From a virus, in IMG/VR virus record IMGVR_UViG_3300007276_000394, positions 1 to 20,776 of that record: a stretch of DNA of 20,776 nt, one strand, 5' to 3'. Below, piece by piece: positions 2,769-20,769 of the stretch. The number at the start of each line of letters is the position of its first letter. Within the stretch, counting starts at the first letter, position 1. A program made the position numbers and the translations under genes. The notes beneath the pieces were generated by a model, which worked only from the letters and a program-made list of their open reading frames with translations, did no database searches and was not told where the DNA came from.

Positions 2769-3207
2769 TTTTAGCGGTTAGATATTGGTGAATAGTAAAT
2801 TTTTTTATATCAATCATACCTAAATTTATATTTTTAGATACGGCTAATATTTCTTTGTTAAAATCGTTTATTTCTTGGTTGTCAGGTTTTCTTATACCCT
2901 CTTCTTTTAGCCTCCATAAAGTACGGTTTAATTTATTTCCGTTAATTATGTAATCTAATTTCAACAAAGCTATTTCTTTTTCAGTTTCTTTATGAGCTAA
3001 AAAAGACTCATTAAAACCAAATTCTGAAATAATCTGATCATTGATATTATGATAAGCTGTAACAGATTTAGGGGAAAATGTAGGCTCTAATTTAGATGGT
3101 ATTTTATTAATAGAATCCTTTAACATAAAAGAAAGATTATTATACCTCAAAAACATTAACCAGTGATAAATTGGTGCTGTGTAAATATCATCTATAAATA
3201 ATTGCAT
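2761..3207 (-). CDS. Pre-tape-measure tail assembly protein (chaperone position)
   Basis: A 148-aa soluble, alpha-helical, charged protein encoded directly before the tape measure gene, overlapping it by 8 bases. In siphophages this slot holds the tail assembly chaperones (the lambda G/GT position). The N-terminal pattern (short acidic strand, then APIYHWLMFLRYN) loosely recalls the roughly 150-aa proteins that precede tape measure genes in Bacteroidota phages. That comparison is from memory and weak. The ATG at 3207 lies inside the preceding gene, giving a 20-base overlap that is longer than other junctions here. No classic slippery heptamer was seen in it. Role is inferred mainly from position. 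Confidence 0.5.
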   Translation of the reverse strand: MQLFIDDIYTAPIYHWLMFLRYNNLSFMLKDSINKIPSKLEPTFSPKSVTAYHNINDQIISEFGFNESFLAHKETEKEIALLKLDYIINGNKLNRTLWRLKEEGIRKPDNQEINDFNKEILAVSKNINLGMIDIKKFTIHQYLTAKNG

Positions 3208-3631
3208 AGAATTTAGTTCTTAAATAGTCCATTACTTTTACAATGTTTTCTGGTTGTAGTCCTTCTATATTATCACCATATCTATCTTCTAGGTTTTGCC
3301 CTTCTTTCATAGGGTCTGAATCAATTAAAAAACTAGCATTAGGTTTTACAACCACTTCAAAAGATTTATAAAAATCACCTGTGTCTTTTAGTGTTACCCT
3401 GTTTGATGGTTGTCCTTTCCTTCTTTTTATCGCTATTGTAGATGGTGCATAAGAACCACCAATAGAAGCGAGTTGAACACCTCTTGAATCTTCACCGTAA
3501 TCAAATAACTGTACTTTTGTATTTAGATCAGTAATGAATTTCTGAGTACTTTTTTGATTTAGTATTTTTACAAGTGTAGCTGTTACATTTGTTTTAGATA
3601 ATTTTAACGCTATTTCAAGAATATCAGCCAT
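3188..3631 (-). CDS. Tail-completion-like (HK97 gp10-type) protein
   Basis: A 147-aa basic protein. Its central segment, with basic KRRKGQPSNR followed by LKDTGDFYKSF, resembles the 'tLr dTG.l..S' pattern of head-tail joining and tail-completion proteins of the HK97 gp10 type. It is the first gene after the terminator at 3646-3680 and starts only five bases below a TATCTTTG box, so its message could be leaderless. It ends 20 bases inside the next gene. It could equally be another neck or tail assembly factor. Function is inferred from the motif and the tail-gene neighbourhood. Confidence 0.45.
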   Translation of the reverse strand: MADILEIALKLSKTNVTATLVKILNQKSTQKFITDLNTKVQLFDYGEDSRGVQLASIGGSYAPSTIAIKRRKGQPSNRVTLKDTGDFYKSFEVVVKPNASFLIDSDPMKEGQNLEDRYGDNIEGLQPENIVKVMDYLRTKFYAIIYR

Positions 3632-3636
3632 TAAAA

Positions 3637-3644
3637 CAAAGATA
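3637..3644 (-). promoter_or_regulatory. Candidate -7 box TATCTTTG for the tail genes
   Basis: On the minus strand TATCTTTG matches the Bacteroidota -7 consensus TAnnTTTG exactly. It sits between the T-run of the preceding terminator and the ATG at 3631. No TTG lies 19-20 bases upstream, so the -33 half is missing. If used, transcription would start close to the ATG. Confidence 0.4.
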
Positions 3645-3645
3645 C

Positions 3646-3680
3646 AAAAAAAACACCACCGAATTTAATCAGTGGTGTTT
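3646..3680 (-). terminator. Rho-independent terminator closing the accessory cassette
   Basis: A perfect 9-bp stem (3651-3659 pairing with 3672-3680) with a 12-base loop is followed on the minus strand by a run of eight T. It lies just below the stop of the HrgC-like gene and separates the cassette from the tail genes. Confidence 0.85.
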
Positions 3681-3704
3681 ACCTTTAGCTGTGTTGAAAA
3701 TACT

Positions 3705-3983
3705 CTAACTAACGTAATCAAATCTTTTAATAAGGTATTGAGTTGATTTATCATCAAAAGGCTCATAACCGTCCTCTATTAGTGTTACAATCTTCTTTCT
3801 GTTGTAAAAGAAAGGAACAAAAAACCAAGATACCCCAAATGTAATAGAAGCGTAACAAAAATGTCTAAAAGCCCCTTTAAAATCTCCTATACAAACAGGG
3901 TACAAACACCCAAATAACAAGGCTTTCCAACTATACCCAGTAACAACTTTTTTCTTTAATCCGTTTTTTATTAATGTTATCAT
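3705..3983 (-). CDS. HrgC-like small membrane protein
   Basis: A 92-aa protein with the pattern of the HrgC / DUF2628-like family as I recall it: a short basic N-terminus, a GYSWKALLFG motif, a GDFKGAFRHF segment between two hydrophobic stretches (about residues 18-33 and 43-60), then YNRKKIVTLIEDGYEP. The family is widespread in bacterial genomes and mobile elements and has no settled biochemical role. The protein should sit in the inner membrane with its C-terminal tail in the cytoplasm. The start follows the lipoprotein gene by four bases, in the context TAG-AATT-ATG. It is the last gene of the accessory cassette and is followed by a strong terminator. Confidence 0.6.
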   Translation of the reverse strand: MITLIKNGLKKKVVTGYSWKALLFGCLYPVCIGDFKGAFRHFCYASITFGVSWFFVPFFYNRKKIVTLIEDGYEPFDDKSTQYLIKRFDYVS

Positions 3984-3987
3984 AATT

Positions 3988-4290
3988 CTATTTTAATCTG
4001 TTTTTGATAATTACCATTTGTTCATTTGTCAGAGTATCATTTGCTACCCTCCACCCTGTAGAATTAGTGATACAGTAATCACTACCTACGTAAGCATTCA
4101 TCCAATCACCTCTAGATAAAATCCATCTTTTCTCATTCCCTGAGCAATCACTTCTAATTACTACAGAATAATCACTAACCCTATCACTAACTACTAAACC
4201 ACAATTACAATCTGGTATTAATATGTTATCTTCTTTTTGACAGCTCAACATTCCAAGAGCTAACAACGATATTAATAATACTTTTTTCAT
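3988..4290 (-). CDS. Predicted surface-exposed lipoprotein (possible superinfection exclusion)
   Basis: A 100-aa protein with a type II signal peptide: Lys-Lys at residues 2-3, a hydrophobic core LLISLLALGML, then Ser-Cys with the lipidated cysteine at residue 17. The residues after it, QKEDN, fit the X-K-(D/E)2-X lipoprotein export signal described for Bacteroidota, which directs lipoproteins to the outer face of the outer membrane. The mature part has four cysteines (28, 30, 49, 73) that could form two disulfides, and a small beta-rich body. It carries no tail or capsid hallmark. In phages such as T5 a small lipoprotein blocks the receptor after infection, so superinfection exclusion is a reasonable guess but unproven. 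It lies between two other small genes with four-base gaps. Confidence 0.7.
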   Translation of the reverse strand: MKKVLLISLLALGMLSCQKEDNILIPDCNCGLVVSDRVSDYSVVIRSDCSGNEKRWILSRGDWMNAYVGSDYCITNSTGWRVANDTLTNEQMVIIKNRLK

Positions 4291-4294
4291 AATT

Positions 4295-4504
4295 CTATTT
4301 GTTTAAATATTTAGATACTTGTTTTTCTGTGAATACTCTAAAGTAACCACCAGCATACATTGACATATTTGTACTTCTTAATTCACACGTAATATCATCA
4401 CCATTAATATCTGATATTTTCCACGACTCAACCCCTTCTGCATTGCCACTTGTGATCGTTCTTGTGTTCTGTGTTCTAATTGAAAAACCTTGTCCTACTT
4501 CCAT
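4295..4504 (-). CDS. Unknown 69-aa small beta-rich protein
   Basis: A 69-aa protein I do not recognise. Alternating hydrophobic and polar residues with glycine turns (GFSIRTQ, WKISDINGDDITCEL, GGYFRVF) suggest a compact beta-barrel or SH3-like fold, ending in a short helix (TEKQVSKYLNK). There is one cysteine and no signal peptide or membrane segment. The ATG at 4504 follows the ribbon-helix-helix stop by four bases and shares the leader AACATTATGGAA with the first gene of the cassette. The gene is four bases from the lipoprotein gene, so it should be co-transcribed. Confidence 0.6.
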   Translation of the reverse strand: MEVGQGFSIRTQNTRTITSGNAEGVESWKISDINGDDITCELRSTNMSMYAGGYFRVFTEKQVSKYLNK

Positions 4505-4508
4505 AATG

Positions 4509-4646
4509 TTAAATTGTTTTTGGTTTGTTAAAATACACCCTTAGAGCGTCTTGAATTAATTTGTTAATACTTTTGTTGTTTCTTAGTGCTTCTATCCTTA
4601 GAAACTCTTTAAACTGCTTAGAATCTAAATATCTTATCTGTTCCAT
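4509..4646 (-). CDS. Small ribbon-helix-helix (Arc/CopG-like) DNA-binding protein
   Basis: A 45-aa ORF from the ATG at 4646 to the TAA at 4509. The sequence fits a ribbon-helix-helix monomer: an N-terminal strand (EQIRYLD), a first amphipathic helix (residues about 9-23, KQFKEFLRIEALRNN), a short turn at KS, then a second helix (INKLIQDALRVYF). Such proteins dimerise through the strand, which contacts DNA bases, and usually repress their own promoters. It lies nine bases after the 129-aa gene and four before the next start, inside the cassette whose promoter region holds paired TGTACA palindromes. Autoregulation is therefore a reasonable hypothesis. The reading frame is seen directly; the fold is judged by eye. 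Confidence 0.7.
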   Translation of the reverse strand: MEQIRYLDSKQFKEFLRIEALRNNKSINKLIQDALRVYFNKPKTI

Positions 4647-4654
4647 AGTTAATA

Positions 4655-5044
4655 TTAAAATTTATAACCTGAGTTTATCAAGTCGTTAGTGTATAATTTA
4701 ATATCTGCTTCTGCCCCTCTCATACCGTTCATTTTTCTTTTCATGTTTATTTTACCAACGTTGTGAAAAGAACCTCCGATCTCGTCACCTACAAATACTT
4801 TTTTAGAAGAACCTTTGTAGCTTTTTGCATCCCAATCAGCAAACTCTGTTTTAGCAGTTTCTAAAAGTGATAAAGTTAAGATTTGAAAAGGAGTCAATTC
4901 TTTAACCTCTACTACTTCAACAATCTCTTCATCAGAAAACAAAACATTCATATCAAAACCTCCGTTAGCCTCATTCATTTTAGCTTCAAACTCTGCATCT
5001 GTGTACTCTTTGCAGTTGTCGTTGTTTAAGATGATAGTTTCCAT
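4655..5044 (-). CDS. Unknown 129-aa protein, first gene of accessory cassette
   Basis: A 129-aa cytoplasmic-looking protein that I do not recognise. The first 50 residues are acidic (DAEFEAKMNEANGG, SDEEIVEVVEVKE) and the C-terminal half is basic and glycine-containing (KVFVGDEIGGSFHN, KINMKRKMNGMRG). There is no signal peptide, membrane segment or cysteine motif of note. It is the promoter-proximal gene of the cassette, preceded by a candidate promoter with operator-like repeats and a leader of roughly 30 bases. Its start context AACATTATGGAA is also found at the 69-aa gene. It does not look like a virion protein. A regulatory or host-takeover role is possible but unsupported. Confidence 0.6.
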   Translation of the reverse strand: METIILNNDNCKEYTDAEFEAKMNEANGGFDMNVLFSDEEIVEVVEVKELTPFQILTLSLLETAKTEFADWDAKSYKGSSKKVFVGDEIGGSFHNVGKINMKRKMNGMRGAEADIKLYTNDLINSGYKF

Positions 5045-5080
5045 AATGTTTTTGTTTTAGTTTCGTTCGTTTCTCTGATG

Positions 5081-5110
5081 TAAATATACAAACCTTTTTT
5101 GATTGTACAA
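5081..5110 (-). promoter_or_regulatory. Promoter of the accessory cassette (TTG-N19-TATATTTA)
   Basis: Minus-strand TATATTTA (5081-5088) is one base off the Bacteroidota -7 consensus TAnnTTTG, and a TTG at 5110-5108 lies exactly 19 bases upstream. The predicted transcript starts near 5074, about 30 bases before the ATG at 5044. The region follows a terminator, so the cassette needs its own promoter. Confidence 0.6.
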
Positions 5111-5123
5111 CTATTGTACACAA
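5103..5123. promoter_or_regulatory. Operator-like tandem TGTACA palindromes
   Basis: A perfect 8-bp palindrome TTGTACAA (5103-5110) is followed by a near copy TTGTACACAA (5114-5123). The TGTACA cores are 11 bp apart centre to centre, so they face the same side of the helix. The first overlaps the -33 TTG of the cassette promoter. This is the layout expected for cooperative binding of a small dimeric repressor such as the ribbon-helix-helix protein encoded at 4509-4646. Confidence 0.5.
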
Positions 5124-5131
5124 ATAAACAT

Positions 5132-5162
5132 AAAAAAGAGGTGAACTTTTAAGAACACCCCC
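5132..5162 (-). terminator. Terminator-like hairpin after the beta-helix gene
   Basis: On the minus strand GGGGGTG (5156-5162) pairs with CACCTCT (5137-5143) with two G-T wobbles, and an inner CT/AG pairing extends it. A run of six T follows (5132-5137). It ends the upstream structural unit just before the cassette promoter. Confidence 0.55.
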
Positions 5163-5173
5163 TTTAAACTTGG

Positions 5174-6529
5174 TTAACTAGCTCCCGAACTTGTGCGTGA
5201 TAAGAAAATACTTCTACCTCCTATTGTTATTGTTCCTGTGTCAGACTTTAAAAAGATTTGCCCTCCATTAGCTATAAATGTTCCTAGTGTGAAAATAGGG
5301 AAAGAAAATATAACAGGTTCTGTTAAACCCCTCACAGGTTTTGTGTCTTGTGCTACAATAATTGAAGGTGTTGCACCCCCACCAATATCTAAAATAATTG
5401 TTAACTCTGTAGGGTTACCAGCTAAATTATCAATAATTAACTGAATCCTCATATCAAAAGAATCACCCTCTACAATTCCAACTATACAGCTATTTGTACT
5501 ATCCCATAAATTACTAACACCTCTTATAGCTATAGGTAAGTATGAATCACTAGATGTTCCTCCTACACTATCAATAAGTAATTTTGTTTCTGTAGTTGTT
5601 ACTGATATTGTTGGTATAGCTATAAGACCATCCACCGCAAACTCCCAACCAGCAAATAAAACTCTATCAGATGTTAAAATATTTCTATTAGCTGATGAAT
5701 ACCAAAGTAAATCCAAAGGACTATAACCACTAGAACCGAAACCACCTAAAGTAGTATCTATTTTACAGTTTGTTATAGTCCCCTCACCAGCTGGTATAAG
5801 GTTTCCACTATTAACTAACATTGAAATAAACGTAGTAGTAGCGGTATTTACACACGTACACAAGTTTATACCTGCTGCTGCTAAAATCGCTGTACCAAAA
5901 TCTATACCTGTAGTTGAAACATCACGAAATAAACAGTGAGTATGGATATAACTCAGAAAAGTACCATTCAATTTTACAGCAGTTCCACATAATTGATGTA
6001 AACCAAAATTAACCGCTACAGTATCAAAATCAGTAATTTCTATTTGAGTTGTACCACCTAAATAAGTCATTCTCTCAGATGAATAAAATTCAACACCTGT
6101 ACCAATACCTTTAACCAAATGAGAAGCACTAAACCCTATTATCTGTAAATCTTGAGTATTAAACCCATTATTAACGGTTATTAATACACCTGTAGTAGTA
6201 GAAGATAAACCGTCTGTAGCTGGGTTTAAACCTAAGAATTTAATATTAGAAGCCGTTACACTTATTTCATTAGCTCCTAAATCAACTATACCAGAAAACA
6301 CATAATTAGTATTATCTACATCTAGTGTAATTACACCACCAACAGAAGTAGGTAAATCACTCAATGTTTTAATTAACGTGTAAGGTAAAACAGTTTGTGC
6401 TATCCAATTAACTCCATTGTTACCATCAGGTGATAATACTAAAGCTGGGTTTGTTTGTTCCGTTGTAAAGGTTTCTATTAACCCATACCTAGCCCTGTTT
6501 GGGTCGTTTACGTTTATTAATAAACTCAT
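5174..6529 (-). CDS. Beta-helix-like virion surface protein (spike/fibre candidate)
   Basis: A 451-aa protein rich in Thr, Ser, Ile, Val, Gly and Asn with few charged residues. From about residue 70 onward it shows repeated short beta strands separated by Asn/Gly turns (ITVNNGFNTQDLQIIGF, IEITDFDTVAVNFG, GTAVKLNG), the look of a right-handed parallel beta-helix as found in pectate-lyase-like phage spikes. The N-terminal 60 residues (NDPNRARYGLIETF onward) may be a virion anchor. The last 120 residues look like a separate beta domain. No enzymatic catalytic triad could be identified. The start overlaps the stop of the 109-aa gene by four bases (ATGA). The gene sits between the tail tube and tail assembly genes and is closed by a terminator, so a host-recognition or decoration role is likely. 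Confidence 0.55.
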   Translation of the reverse strand: MSLLINVNDPNRARYGLIETFTTEQTNPALVLSPDGNNGVNWIAQTVLPYTLIKTLSDLPTSVGGVITLDVDNTNYVFSGIVDLGANEISVTASNIKFLGLNPATDGLSSTTTGVLITVNNGFNTQDLQIIGFSASHLVKGIGTGVEFYSSERMTYLGGTTQIEITDFDTVAVNFGLHQLCGTAVKLNGTFLSYIHTHCLFRDVSTTGIDFGTAILAAAGINLCTCVNTATTTFISMLVNSGNLIPAGEGTITNCKIDTTLGGFGSSGYSPLDLLWYSSANRNILTSDRVLFAGWEFAVDGLIAIPTISVTTTETKLLIDSVGGTSSDSYLPIAIRGVSNLWDSTNSCIVGIVEGDSFDMRIQLIIDNLAGNPTELTIILDIGGGATPSIIVAQDTKPVRGLTEPVIFSFPIFTLGTFIANGGQIFLKSDTGTITIGGRSIFLSRTSSGAS

Positions 6530-6855
6530 AATGTATTGAAATATGCTTTAAATGTTCCTGTACTTGTATTTGATAACCAAGATATTCTAAAGAAAGTGGT
6601 TTTTGTGAATGAATCAAATTGAAAGAATTGGCTTAAATCTTTAAATATAAACCCTTCAACCTCCCAACTAACCCAGTTAATACCATCATTAGATAATTCA
6701 AAAGTTAGTAGTGGTTGTCCTGTTCCTGATACCCTTAATATTTGTAAATCCTTTGGTATTCCACTAAAGAAAGAGTTAACAAAAGTATCTGTAAAACCAT
6801 CAGAGGTTAAATCCAAATCATCTAAACCCCCTTGTTTTAAATATAATAAAGCCAT
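6526..6855 (-). CDS. Small beta-sandwich-like virion protein
   Basis: A 109-aa protein with alternating hydrophobic residues and aromatic-rich strands (LLTFELSNDGINWVSWEV, TFFRISWLSN, GTFKAYFN). It resembles a compact beta sandwich such as small tail, baseplate or decoration domains. There is no signal peptide or membrane segment. It is coupled by a four-base ATGA overlap to the 451-aa beta-helix-like gene, so the two products probably work together, perhaps as adaptor and spike. The gene starts 12 bases below a terminator hairpin and no clear promoter lies between, so its expression may depend on read-through. The exact role is unknown. Confidence 0.5.
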   Translation of the reverse strand: MALLYLKQGGLDDLDLTSDGFTDTFVNSFFSGIPKDLQILRVSGTGQPLLTFELSNDGINWVSWEVEGFIFKDLSQFFQFDSFTKTTFFRISWLSNTSTGTFKAYFNTL

Positions 6856-6866
6856 AGTTTTTAGTT

Positions 6867-6893
6867 AAAAAAAAGCCCCGAATTAACGAGGCT
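6867..6893 (-). terminator. Terminator/attenuator hairpin inside the structural gene run
   Basis: On the minus strand AGCCTCG (6887-6893) pairs with CGGGGCT (6874-6880), with one T-G wobble and a six-base loop, followed by eight T (6867-6874). It lies between the 59-aa gene and the 109-aa gene. Confidence 0.75.
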
Positions 6894-6900
6894 CTAAAAT

Positions 6901-7080
6901 TTATTTATCTTTTACTTCTTTTACTTTCTTTGGTTTTTTAACCGCAAAAGAATCATAGATTTTTTTAATGTTTGAACTTAGAATTTTACCTTTAAAGGCT
7001 TTTTCAAATTCTTCAAACGTTTTGGATTTCCAATACTCTACTGAAACACCAACATTTTTACCATTGTTTTTAACTATCAT
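6901..7080 (-). CDS. Small 59-aa basic protein following the tail tube gene
   Basis: An ORF from the ATG at 7080 to the TAA at 6901 encodes a 59-aa basic protein. It begins MIVKNNGKNVGVSVEYW, has a helical middle (KTFEEFEKAFKGK, KKIYDSFAV) and a lysine-rich tail (KKPKKVKEVKDK). The start is two bases after the stop of the tail tube gene, in the context TTTAATTATG, so it is in the same transcript. The terminator hairpin begins eight bases beyond its stop. I do not recognise a family. The position suggests a small structural or assembly factor. The uninterrupted frame, tight spacing and terminator after it support a real gene. Confidence 0.65.
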   Translation of the reverse strand: MIVKNNGKNVGVSVEYWKSKTFEEFEKAFKGKILSSNIKKIYDSFAVKKPKKVKEVKDK

Positions 7081-7082
7081 AA

Positions 7083-8039
7083 TTAAACAGGTGTTACAAT
7101 TTCAATTGTATTACTCTCAAATTGTTGATCAACAGCAGACAAAGGAACACCAGCAAATACTACGCTCAATGTTTCAGAAGGTGTTGATGGAATAGTTAAG
7201 GTATAAATGCCATCAGCTTCTACAATTGTAGTAGGAACGATATTATTTAACCCTGTATCTGTTACCGTCCAATCTTCTGGTGATGTGCTTACTTTACCTT
7301 CAATTGGAATGATTTCACCAAAGTAACCAAAGTCTTTAATAAGGAAAGAAAAAGAGATCTCTGTAGCTGTTGCTACTCCTGTTTCAGTTAATACTCCGTC
7401 AATAATACCGTTAATCTGTAATAAATTAACTTCAATAGAATCAGATGGAATAATTCTTAAATTACCCTCTTTTACTGATTTATCATATTGGAAAGATACC
7501 TCTATTCTTTGAGTTGCTGAACCTTCTACAGGGTCAATTTCAATAGCTTCAAAAGAACCTTTAGCAATTAAGATAGGAAACAATTCTAAACCATCTAAAG
7601 ACATTTCGCCTTTAAGAGAACCGTTTACATCAATCTCAAATTTACCCTCAAGAGAACAAGCCCCAGCATTCATTTTGTCAGCTATTACACCATCAACTTG
7701 TGGTAAAATACCTTTAAATTCTTTTACCCCTGTATCAACTTTAACTCTAGCACCACTAGAAAAATCTTCAAAAGTTGAATCAGTTCTACTTGGTTCTACA
7801 TTCTCGTATTTAGTCGGTGTAATGTACCAACGTTTTGAAGGGTCAGCTTCGTTTAATTTACCGTTAATGTAAGCATCAGTTAATTTACCGTCTGATAATT
7901 CAGAATATAAAATAGAGTTTCTATTTCCTTCTGAATCAAAAGCATTAACTGTGATATGCTTCTTTACTGTACCTAATAATCTAGGGCATGATAATACTCC
8001 TAAATTTTGTTGACCATCACCACATTTACAAAAGCTCAT
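7083..8039 (-). CDS. Probable major tail tube protein with C-terminal Ig-like domain
   Basis: A 318-aa beta-rich protein two genes below the major capsid gene region and after a tail-terminator-like gene, the usual place for the tail tube subunit. Residues about 20-235 look like a tube-type beta fold (strands such as GKFEIDVNG, EVSFQYDKS, ISFSFLIKDFGYFG). Residues about 240-318 look like an appended Ig-like or Big-type domain (WTVTDTGLNNI, GIYTLTIP, LSVVFAGVPLS), a common addition to tail tube proteins. An unusual feature is the N-terminus, MSFCKCGDGQQNLG then a further Cys, with cysteines at residues 4, 6 and 18. Alternative: another major tail or baseplate protein. Confidence 0.6.
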   Translation of the reverse strand: MSFCKCGDGQQNLGVLSCPRLLGTVKKHITVNAFDSEGNRNSILYSELSDGKLTDAYINGKLNEADPSKRWYITPTKYENVEPSRTDSTFEDFSSGARVKVDTGVKEFKGILPQVDGVIADKMNAGACSLEGKFEIDVNGSLKGEMSLDGLELFPILIAKGSFEAIEIDPVEGSATQRIEVSFQYDKSVKEGNLRIIPSDSIEVNLLQINGIIDGVLTETGVATATEISFSFLIKDFGYFGEIIPIEGKVSTSPEDWTVTDTGLNNIVPTTIVEADGIYTLTIPSTPSETLSVVFAGVPLSAVDQQFESNTIEIVTPV

Positions 8040-18438: not shown

Positions 18439-20769
18439 CTAAAAACCTATTTTCTCTATGCACTTCCACGAAACACCATTTGACTTACCTTCTGTCATTC
18501 CTATTTCATCACGTGTATCTGTGTATAATTTAACCCATTTATTAAAACGAGAAGTAGTAAACCATTTCTGATATTTCAATTCTTGATTATCTTCTAAATA
18601 CAAATCTTTTAACTCTGTTTTAACCCAACGTTTTGAACCATCCCACTCGTAAGAGTCCATAAACTCAAGAAACTCTAAACTTGTATCATTTCTTAATTTT
18701 CTTTCTAATAGGTTAATAGTTTTAGATTCTACTAAACCATTATTAAGATAGTATTGAACACAGCGTAACATATAATTATCAAATTTAGCCCACTCATTAC
18801 TATTCCAATCAGAAAAAAGTAAATGACCAAATTCATCTTCTGGTGTGTTTTGATCGTTAAAGTAACCAGCCATTTCAACTTCAAAAACCCTTCTAAGATG
18901 TGAGCTACCTTCACCCTTAACTGTGTAGTTCGTTGTAATTGATATTTTAGGGCTTTCATTAAATGGTATTTTTATAGCGTCTTTTCCTTTTTTCTCTATT
19001 GTTAGCCCCTCAGTAATTAAACTAAAAAGGTTCTCAAACTTAAAATTCCTATCAATATCATCAAATAGTAAAACCTGTGTATCTGTATTTACTGTTTGGT
19101 AGGCAAATTGTGTTGTAGGGTCAAAACCTTTTCCATTAATAGTAGATAGTTTTTTGATGTGGCTTAATGCTTTATGAATTAAACCCTTACCAGAACCACC
19201 GTTAGGAACGTCTGAAATCATTTCATCATTAAAGATAATTACTTTTGGTTTTCCTTCATTTTGGTATGAGTGTAGGAGATAACCAATAACAGATTTAAAG
19301 GTATAGTAACGCTCTTTATTTTCACCGCTTATTTTCCAAATGAAAGTTTTAAATTCACCTTCACTTTCTTCTGCTGGTGTGAAATCTCTATCTATTACTT
19401 GATCTTCCCACACTAACCCCTTTAAACTTGAATAAGGTATTAATTCAGCACCTTCTTTAGTGGTTTTTACTGCTGTATTATTGTAGTAAATAAAACTTTC
19501 TTCTTTTGTATCTCTCTGTATGTCTATTTGAGAAGTAGAAAGCATTGATAAAAACTTAGGATTAAATGTCATTAGTGAACCTGCACATAACTCAAAAGCA
19601 TCTATTTCCCCCCTTTTTCTAAGGTCTGTTAAAGTAAAATCTTTTATTCTGTTTTCGTTAAACTCTTTTATGAAGTTGTTATCCTTTTTGATATACAGAT
19701 AACCACTATCAGCAGATGGATAGTATTTAGTAATATTATTATTTTCTAGGTAGTTAAGAAATCGAAAAGTAGCCATTTTTATTACTTCTTTTTCTGTGTA
19801 ATACCAAAATTCATCAGTAACTAAATCAGCTTTATGCTTTTCTATTTCCAACTCTAATGCCTCACTACTAACCCCCTCTACTTTGGAAATAGTACCCCCA
19901 GAAACAACTTTATTTTTAATGAAATTAACCTTTTTGTTATCCTCAAAAGCCTGTGTGTTAAATTCCGCTGTGTATCTATAAGCTGAATTAATAAGTCCTT
20001 TTATTTCACTTTGTTTAAAGTCACTTTGTTCGTATCTAAAAAGATAGTTTTCAGCTATCATTTGGTCAACACCAAAACAGTTTAATTGACGAGCAAAAGC
20101 GTGTAAATTAGTGTTCCTGTTATCTGCTGTTGAATAGTTTTTTTTAAACCACTTTTCAAGTCGTTCTGCTATCTCGTTTTGATCTGTTAAAGGAACATTA
20201 GTAAATGGTTTAATTTCCCTTAATGGTGGGTTATATTTTTCTGTAAAGGTTTTACTATCTGAATTAATAAAAATATCTTTATCAATAGACAAATAACAAG
20301 CTCTTGAAATATCTTTAGTTCCTAAATCTGTTTCAAAATATTTATTATAGTGTTTTTGAAGTTCTAAATAATATTCTTTATAAACTTCATCATTAGGTAC
20401 AGGTGGTATTTTTACCAATACTTTTAAGCCATCACCAGAGGGAGAAATAAAAGAAGAGAAAGTAAACTCATCATTATTGATTTCTTCTATTAATTTTTTT
20501 AAATCTGGTACGTGATCGAAATCTAAAATAGCTAGACCACTTGATTTTTTTAATGCTGAATTAGCTCTAGTTGTAAATGTACCAGCGAAAGTTACGAGTG
20601 GTAAAATATTTCTTTTAACCTCGTTTCTCTCTGTTTGGTCTGTTATTAATCTAACCTTTGCTATGAGGTGTTTTATCTTTTCCTGTTCAATATCCTTTAA
20701 TACTGAATAAACATCAACAGCTTTTAATTCGGTAGTATCGAATGTTCCTTTAAATAGTGATACTCTCAT
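18439..20769 (-). CDS. Primase-helicase (BT4734/VirE-N-type primase plus SF3-like helicase)
   Basis: A 776-aa replication initiator-like protein. The N-terminal primase-like domain has LDFDH (residues 82-86), SPSGDGLKV (109-117) and DISRACYLS (153-161), the signature blocks of the BT4734/VirE-N family common in Bacteroidota mobile elements. A helical linker follows (about 200-275, possible primase C-terminal domain). The C-terminal helicase has a Walker A-like NGGSGKG (523-529), Walker B VLLFDDIDR (566-574), a sensor ITTNY (611-615) and a HLRRVFEV arginine patch (624-631), as in SF3-type phage helicases. The Walker A glycine spacing is compact but usable. The ATG at 20769 is seven bases from the window edge and fits the family's usual start. 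A few extra upstream residues cannot be excluded. Confidence 0.88.
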   Translation of the reverse strand: MRVSLFKGTFDTTELKAVDVYSVLKDIEQEKIKHLIAKVRLITDQTERNEVKRNILPLVTFAGTFTTRANSALKKSSGLAILDFDHVPDLKKLIEEINNDEFTFSSFISPSGDGLKVLVKIPPVPNDEVYKEYYLELQKHYNKYFETDLGTKDISRACYLSIDKDIFINSDSKTFTEKYNPPLREIKPFTNVPLTDQNEIAERLEKWFKKNYSTADNRNTNLHAFARQLNCFGVDQMIAENYLFRYEQSDFKQSEIKGLINSAYRYTAEFNTQAFEDNKKVNFIKNKVVSGGTISKVEGVSSEALELEIEKHKADLVTDEFWYYTEKEVIKMATFRFLNYLENNNITKYYPSADSGYLYIKKDNNFIKEFNENRIKDFTLTDLRKRGEIDAFELCAGSLMTFNPKFLSMLSTSQIDIQRDTKEESFIYYNNTAVKTTKEGAELIPYSSLKGLVWEDQVIDRDFTPAEESEGEFKTFIWKISGENKERYYTFKSVIGYLLHSYQNEGKPKVIIFNDEMISDVPNGGSGKGLIHKALSHIKKLSTINGKGFDPTTQFAYQTVNTDTQVLLFDDIDRNFKFENLFSLITEGLTIEKKGKDAIKIPFNESPKISITTNYTVKGEGSSHLRRVFEVEMAGYFNDQNTPEDEFGHLLFSDWNSNEWAKFDNYMLRCVQYYLNNGLVESKTINLLERKLRNDTSLEFLEFMDSYEWDGSKRWVKTELKDLYLEDNQELKYQKWFTTSRFNKWVKLYTDTRDEIGMTEGKSNGVSWKCIEKIGF

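Follow-up and report, generated by a model that had tools for sequence, protein, structure and literature searches.

The window analysed here, an entire IMG/VR virus record of 20,776 bases, carries a self-contained accessory cassette of five small genes between conserved tail genes. One of its products is a 100-aa lipoprotein for which we propose, with roughly even confidence, a role in superinfection exclusion by receptor blocking, probably exerted from outside the cell. The first-pass annotation had identified the cassette as a moron. This identification is partly supported, as the insertion-like, moron-like architecture stands while the half of the definition that concerns lysogeny is unsupported, no sign of lysogeny having been found.

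The window appears to be part of the genome of a tailed phage, which is a virus of aquatic Bacteroidota bacteria. The named genes are all encoded by the minus strand and run from primase/helicase through terminases, portal, and major capsid to tail, with the primase/helicase (PHROG 28855) at 18439-20769. A megablast search of the window against phages gave no matches. The cassette lies in a slot flanked on one side by a conserved 147-aa tail protein (3188-3631, minus strand; PHROG 6195, E 9.8e-26) and on the other by a 318-aa probable major tail protein together with a small 59-aa gene (6901-8039, minus strand). In relatives, the homologues of this second flank adjoin the 147-aa tail gene. The slot also contains a 451-aa probable tail fibre or spike-like protein (5174-6529, minus strand; PHROG 8270, E 1.5e-16), with the profile match confined to its C-terminal third. 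Olleya phage Harreka_1 encodes a partial relative of this protein, and no relative was found in the viral contigs searched.

To survey the insertion site we used the 147-aa tail protein as an anchor, which has relatives in 18 viral loci and in 47 isolated phages. The hosts of these phages are mainly Bacteroides, Parabacteroides, Croceibacter, and further Bacteroidota. In 19 of the 21 loci examined the probable major tail gene leads to the 147-aa tail gene either directly or through a single gene of 53-91 aa, although the effective number of loci is smaller than 21 because several are near-copies of one another. The two remaining loci hold different cargo. In L003 the slot (3940-7480) contains five genes encoding 288, 373, 125, 223, and 164 aa, one product being probably fibre-like, while in L006 it contains small genes and a 354-aa protein (6772-7836) that looks like a cytosine DNA methyltransferase. 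In the window, the slot is occupied by two units bounded by terminators, of which one is the 109/451-aa pair and the other the cassette. The empty slot in most relatives and the other cargo in two of them indicate that the slot is variable and that the cassette is accessory. The presence/absence comparison between conserved tail genes thus supports the claim of a self-contained accessory insertion.

The cassette is composed of five ORFs encoding proteins of 129, 45, 69, 100, and 92 aa (5044-3705, minus strand), all of which start with ATG and are separated by gaps of 4-8 bp. These lengths, and the position between tail genes, are exactly as first described. A terminator had also been claimed on each side, and two were found, both of which fold well. 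The terminator that ends the cassette (3680-3651, minus strand) has a 12-bp stem and a U run, with a folding energy of -19.3 kcal/mol with context (z -5.9), and no shuffled sequence folds as well. The second (about 5162-5126, minus strand) is that of the upstream tail unit with the 109-aa and 451-aa genes and is read from the tail-gene side. It gives -12.5 kcal/mol (z -4.0; 0 of 200 shuffles as good) and is followed by UUUUUU. A strict pattern scan overlooked this terminator, and folding recovered it. Three further terminators lie in other gaps of the phage (6895-6872, 10939-10910, and 15720-15688), and the 109/451-aa unit is likewise bracketed. Bracketing therefore seems to be a habit of this phage that is not diagnostic of a moron, and we rejected the terminator bracket as a moron hallmark.

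A promoter and operator-like repeats belonging to the cassette had been proposed as well, and here a candidate promoter and one repeat pair were found, both at the level of consensus matches. A sigma-70 promoter scan gave matches that were not in excess of shuffles. A candidate Bacteroidota promoter, TTG-N19-TATATTTA (5110-5081, minus strand), has one mismatch to TTG-N19-TAnnTTTG and would place the mRNA start ~30 nt ahead of the first ATG, a suitable distance, although taken alone it is weak because 24 such sites occur on the minus strand. Over its -33 element lies an operator-like pair of 8-bp ATTGTACA repeats spaced 11 bp apart (about 5102-5121). A comparable 19-mer arises in 10 of 100 shuffles, making the pair moderate evidence. 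In total GC the cassette is not distinct (0.314 versus 0.315). Amino-acid-matched synonymous GC3 is modestly raised relative to the late genes (0.23 versus 0.17, z 3.0), owing mostly to the 129-aa and 92-aa genes.

The same-strand position among tail genes, together with the terminators in other late intergenic gaps, would also fit five small virion or tail-assembly genes that are expressed late with their neighbours, the terminators being read through or serving for fine-tuning. We regard this as improbable, as relatives make tails without the cassette, the codon usage of the cassette is slightly different, and the relatives of the lipoprotein, with their signal peptide and export motif, are encoded near non-structural genes.

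Two of the cassette proteins, of 129 aa (4655-5044, minus strand) and 69 aa (4295-4504, minus strand), have no relatives in viral contigs, phage genomes, Pfam, PHROGs, NCBIfam, or PADLOC. The 45-aa protein (4509-4646, minus strand) is a candidate ribbon-helix-helix (Arc-like) regulator. The regulator that had been read into the cassette is plausible in this form, with profile matches that are both below significance (a PHROG Arc-like repressor at E 0.03 and Pfam PF20605 at E 0.16). The 92-aa protein (3705-3983, minus strand) is hydrophobic and probably membrane-associated. It matches PHROG 4915 (E 3e-10, residues 6-82), a family that we take to be HrgC-like, and so shares the profile over most of its length. 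Its closest relative, at 53% identity, is encoded by virus L095, in which the 147-aa tail protein has a homologue as well; the 92-aa protein and this relative form a branch well apart from the Lactobacillus phage members of the family (34-37%). As read from translations, the neighbours of the L095 gene are early genes, which encode a probable single-strand annealing protein and an SSB. In other viruses, the lipoprotein gene was not found near any of the remaining four cassette genes, and the five genes are thus not a conserved set.

The 100-aa lipoprotein (3988-4290, minus strand) has a signal peptide, a lipid cysteine within the signal CQKED, and a conserved core of 53 residues (28-80) with four conserved cysteines; lipidation is predicted from the sequence, and the cysteines could form disulphides. 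The lipid signal and export motif, together with the hydrophobic 92-aa product, support the earlier assignment of a surface lipoprotein and a membrane protein to this cassette. A profile scan placed the lipoprotein family in 33 other viral loci. Among GTDB species contigs there is one confirmed copy, and deeper profile searches of ~1,000 Bacteroidota genomes gave ~8 further credible copies, or ~9 genomic copies overall. The family is thus mostly viral, being nearly confined to viruses. Weak genome matches to the profile (E about 1e-6 to 1e-3) covered the N-terminal part only and were discounted as signal-peptide matches. With the window copy as query, the family was absent from Pfam, PHROGs, NCBIfam, and PADLOC, and it was also absent from the isolated-phage genomes of the INPHARED set. 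Among predicted viral structures, an unnamed phage protein, A0A6J5N4R3, is an evident member with 49% identity. The family appears to be undescribed in the databases and literature that we searched.

Members share the signal peptide, the lipid cysteine, and a K-(D/E) motif just behind it, followed by a strongly conserved core that reads roughly CNCG..SD..DYSVVIRN.CSGN.K.F.L..GDWMNAYVGSDYCITN..W, in which four cysteines are invariant. Nearly all members end at the conserved Trp. The window protein is peculiar in having 20 residues beyond it (3991-4050), and the proteins of L043 and L044 have a 6-residue extension. In the structure model, pLDDT is 84-90 across residues 31-70. Matches of this model to OB and small-barrel structures (best Z 6.8) are too common and were given no weight as evidence.

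The motif C-X-K-(D/E)2-X sends lipoproteins to the cell surface, as demonstrated in Capnocytophaga (PMC5080379), and the window sequence C-Q-K-E-D-N fits it. C-X-K-(D/E) was detected by script in 27 of 32 members, or in 29 when the lipid cysteine of L082 and L083 was placed by hand, and 14 members have the full K-(D/E)2. For F. johnsoniae the same study derived SDDFE as the consensus (PMC5080379), and the match is therefore host-dependent. Because the motif fits a Bacteroidota surface export signal, location of the lipoprotein on the outer face of the outer membrane is a fair prediction.

The viral copies of the lipoprotein gene lie mostly near replication, recombination, and other non-structural genes. 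Their neighbours include primase/helicase (L038 and L029), DnaB (L055), helicase (L037), HNH endonuclease (L042), and methyltransferase (L046) genes, and in L054 the lipoprotein gene is next to a terminase gene. The primase/helicase of L038, located shortly downstream of the lipoprotein gene, belongs to the same PHROG 28855 as that of the window. In L031 a GroEL-type chaperonin (3067-4689) is encoded three genes upstream of the lipoprotein. We infer that at least some genes of the cassette are envelope genes of an early type and that the cassette would be expressed early. Both genes that could be classified have their nearest relatives in early regions of other phages, and such genes are no less consistent with takeover of the host in the lytic cycle and with superinfection exclusion than with conversion of a lysogen.

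The genomic copies differ in their surroundings. Three of the nine (L059, L083, and L084) have a WYL regulator within ~2 kb, once per genome, with the lipoprotein gene on the strand opposite to the adjacent regulator gene. The neighbours in these three are, in turn, SIR2 and a type I RM system; PDC-S04; and AbiD, PDC-S11, and a type I RM system. The two type I RM systems have different best profiles and are apparently just distantly similar. The arrangement in the three genomes may have been inherited from one ancestor. Four further copies are located amid ordinary genes (L085, L086, L090, and L091) and two at contig ends (L082 and L087). As read from translations, the same WYL gene is also found in defence-like surroundings where the lipoprotein is missing (L092-L094), so that the lipoprotein could be a passenger. 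In L093 and L094 another secreted protein occupies the divergent place beside the WYL gene. WYL regulators of the BrxR family mark defence islands (PMC9122601). Similar to these islands, the chromosomal relatives of the lipoprotein adjoin WYL together with RM, SIR2, and AbiD genes, whereas the phage cassette has no WYL gene and its candidate regulator is of the ribbon-helix-helix type.

These neighbourhoods also bear on a lytic-cycle module for host takeover or the envelope that is not aimed at superinfection but serves, for example, transport, anchoring, or lysis timing. Such a module is consistent with the early-type genes that surround the lipoprotein gene and the closest 92-aa relative, and with the presence of two envelope-directed products in one operon. 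However, it leaves the chromosomal copies beside restriction, SIR2, and AbiD genes unexplained, and we consider it possible at a clearly lower probability than superinfection exclusion.

The cassette had further been thought to change the host during lysogeny, and this claim is not supported. An integrase was sought and not found in the window, which is an incomplete record, and the searches of the gene products revealed no recognisable repressor. A tyrosine integrase is present in 1 of the 27 viral records (844 kb) that encode a member of the lipoprotein family and in 0 of the 10 records with the shared tail gene. Most phages carrying the lipoprotein are thus probably not temperate, with the reservation that the records are fragments. 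A classical moron, expressed from the prophage of a temperate phage and changing the envelope of the lysogen in immunity, adhesion, or fitness, would account for the layout of terminator, promoter, genes, and terminator, for the absence from relatives, and for the lipoprotein relatives in bacterial chromosomes; a Terrisporobacter phage also encodes a relative of the 92-aa protein close to an integrase. Because the record is incomplete, the window could lack lysogeny genes that the phage has. In addition to the integrase counts, however, the examined chromosomal copies adjoin defence or housekeeping genes and not prophage structural genes, and we judge a classical moron to be rather unlikely. 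What the cassette shares with morons is its putatively independent transcription signals, including the candidate promoter, its absence from relatives, and the placement of non-virion genes amid virion genes; in contrast to morons, it shows no sign of lysogeny or of prophage expression.

We therefore return to superinfection exclusion, which we propose from the size class of the lipoprotein, its disulphide-capable cysteines, its mostly non-structural neighbours, and its association with anti-phage genes. The site that is empty in 19 of 21 relatives, the terminators of the cassette, and the candidate promoter and operator also count in favour. The cassette would be an accessory unit between conserved tail genes, with a regulated promoter of its own that transcribes it separately from the late genes and that the 45-aa protein would probably repress through the repeat over the promoter. 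The lipoprotein would be exported to the outer face of the outer membrane, where it would block or remodel a surface receptor and thereby keep the same phage and related ones from being taken up by the infected cell or by cell debris, and the 92-aa protein may serve as a membrane auxiliary. Surface location, receptor blocking, the repressor role, and early expression are what we infer in this proposal. The other three genes of the cassette have no tie to superinfection exclusion, which argues against it, as do the four genomic copies amid ordinary genes and the defence-like WYL loci that lack the lipoprotein. The lack of a match to known exclusion lipoproteins and the periplasmic action of Llp and Rtp45, both described below, likewise count against it.

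Small phage lipoproteins with a disulphide are known to act in this way. T5 Llp blocks FhuA (PMC9586334) and Rtp45 blocks LptD (PMC12685063); both bind the outer-membrane receptor and keep receptor-binding proteins off, which protects the cell and the progeny (PMC9586334, PMC12685063). Such proteins are typically early, and candidate genes in coliphages are found near receptor-binding genes (PMC9586334, PMC12685063). Similar to T5 Llp, Cor of T1/phi80, and Rtp45, the lipoprotein of the window is very small and phage-encoded and has cysteines besides the lipid anchor. Contrary to Llp and Rtp45, which work from the periplasm, it carries a motif predicting the outer face. It also has two possible cysteine pairs versus one, ends its core with a C-terminal Trp, and has relatives in bacterial defence neighbourhoods. 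A profile search of the PDB with the lipoprotein gave no relative and no homology to Llp, Cor, or Rtp45, and these three were not among the structure-search matches listed for its model.

Lipoproteins of Bacteroidota can be flipped to the cell surface, yet our literature search found no superinfection-exclusion lipoprotein of Bacteroidota phages. The family described here is represented in many environmental phages, is conserved highly enough for direct testing, and provides a concrete candidate that phages share with defence neighbourhoods of bacteria. More generally, finding a moron-like arrangement amid tail genes does not have to imply lysogenic conversion. As a tentative extension, the lipoprotein may found a widespread family of outward-facing receptor-blocking proteins with which Bacteroidota phages keep out rivals, and which some bacteria may have recruited, as an initial line of immunity that blocks adsorption, into WYL-regulated defence islands.
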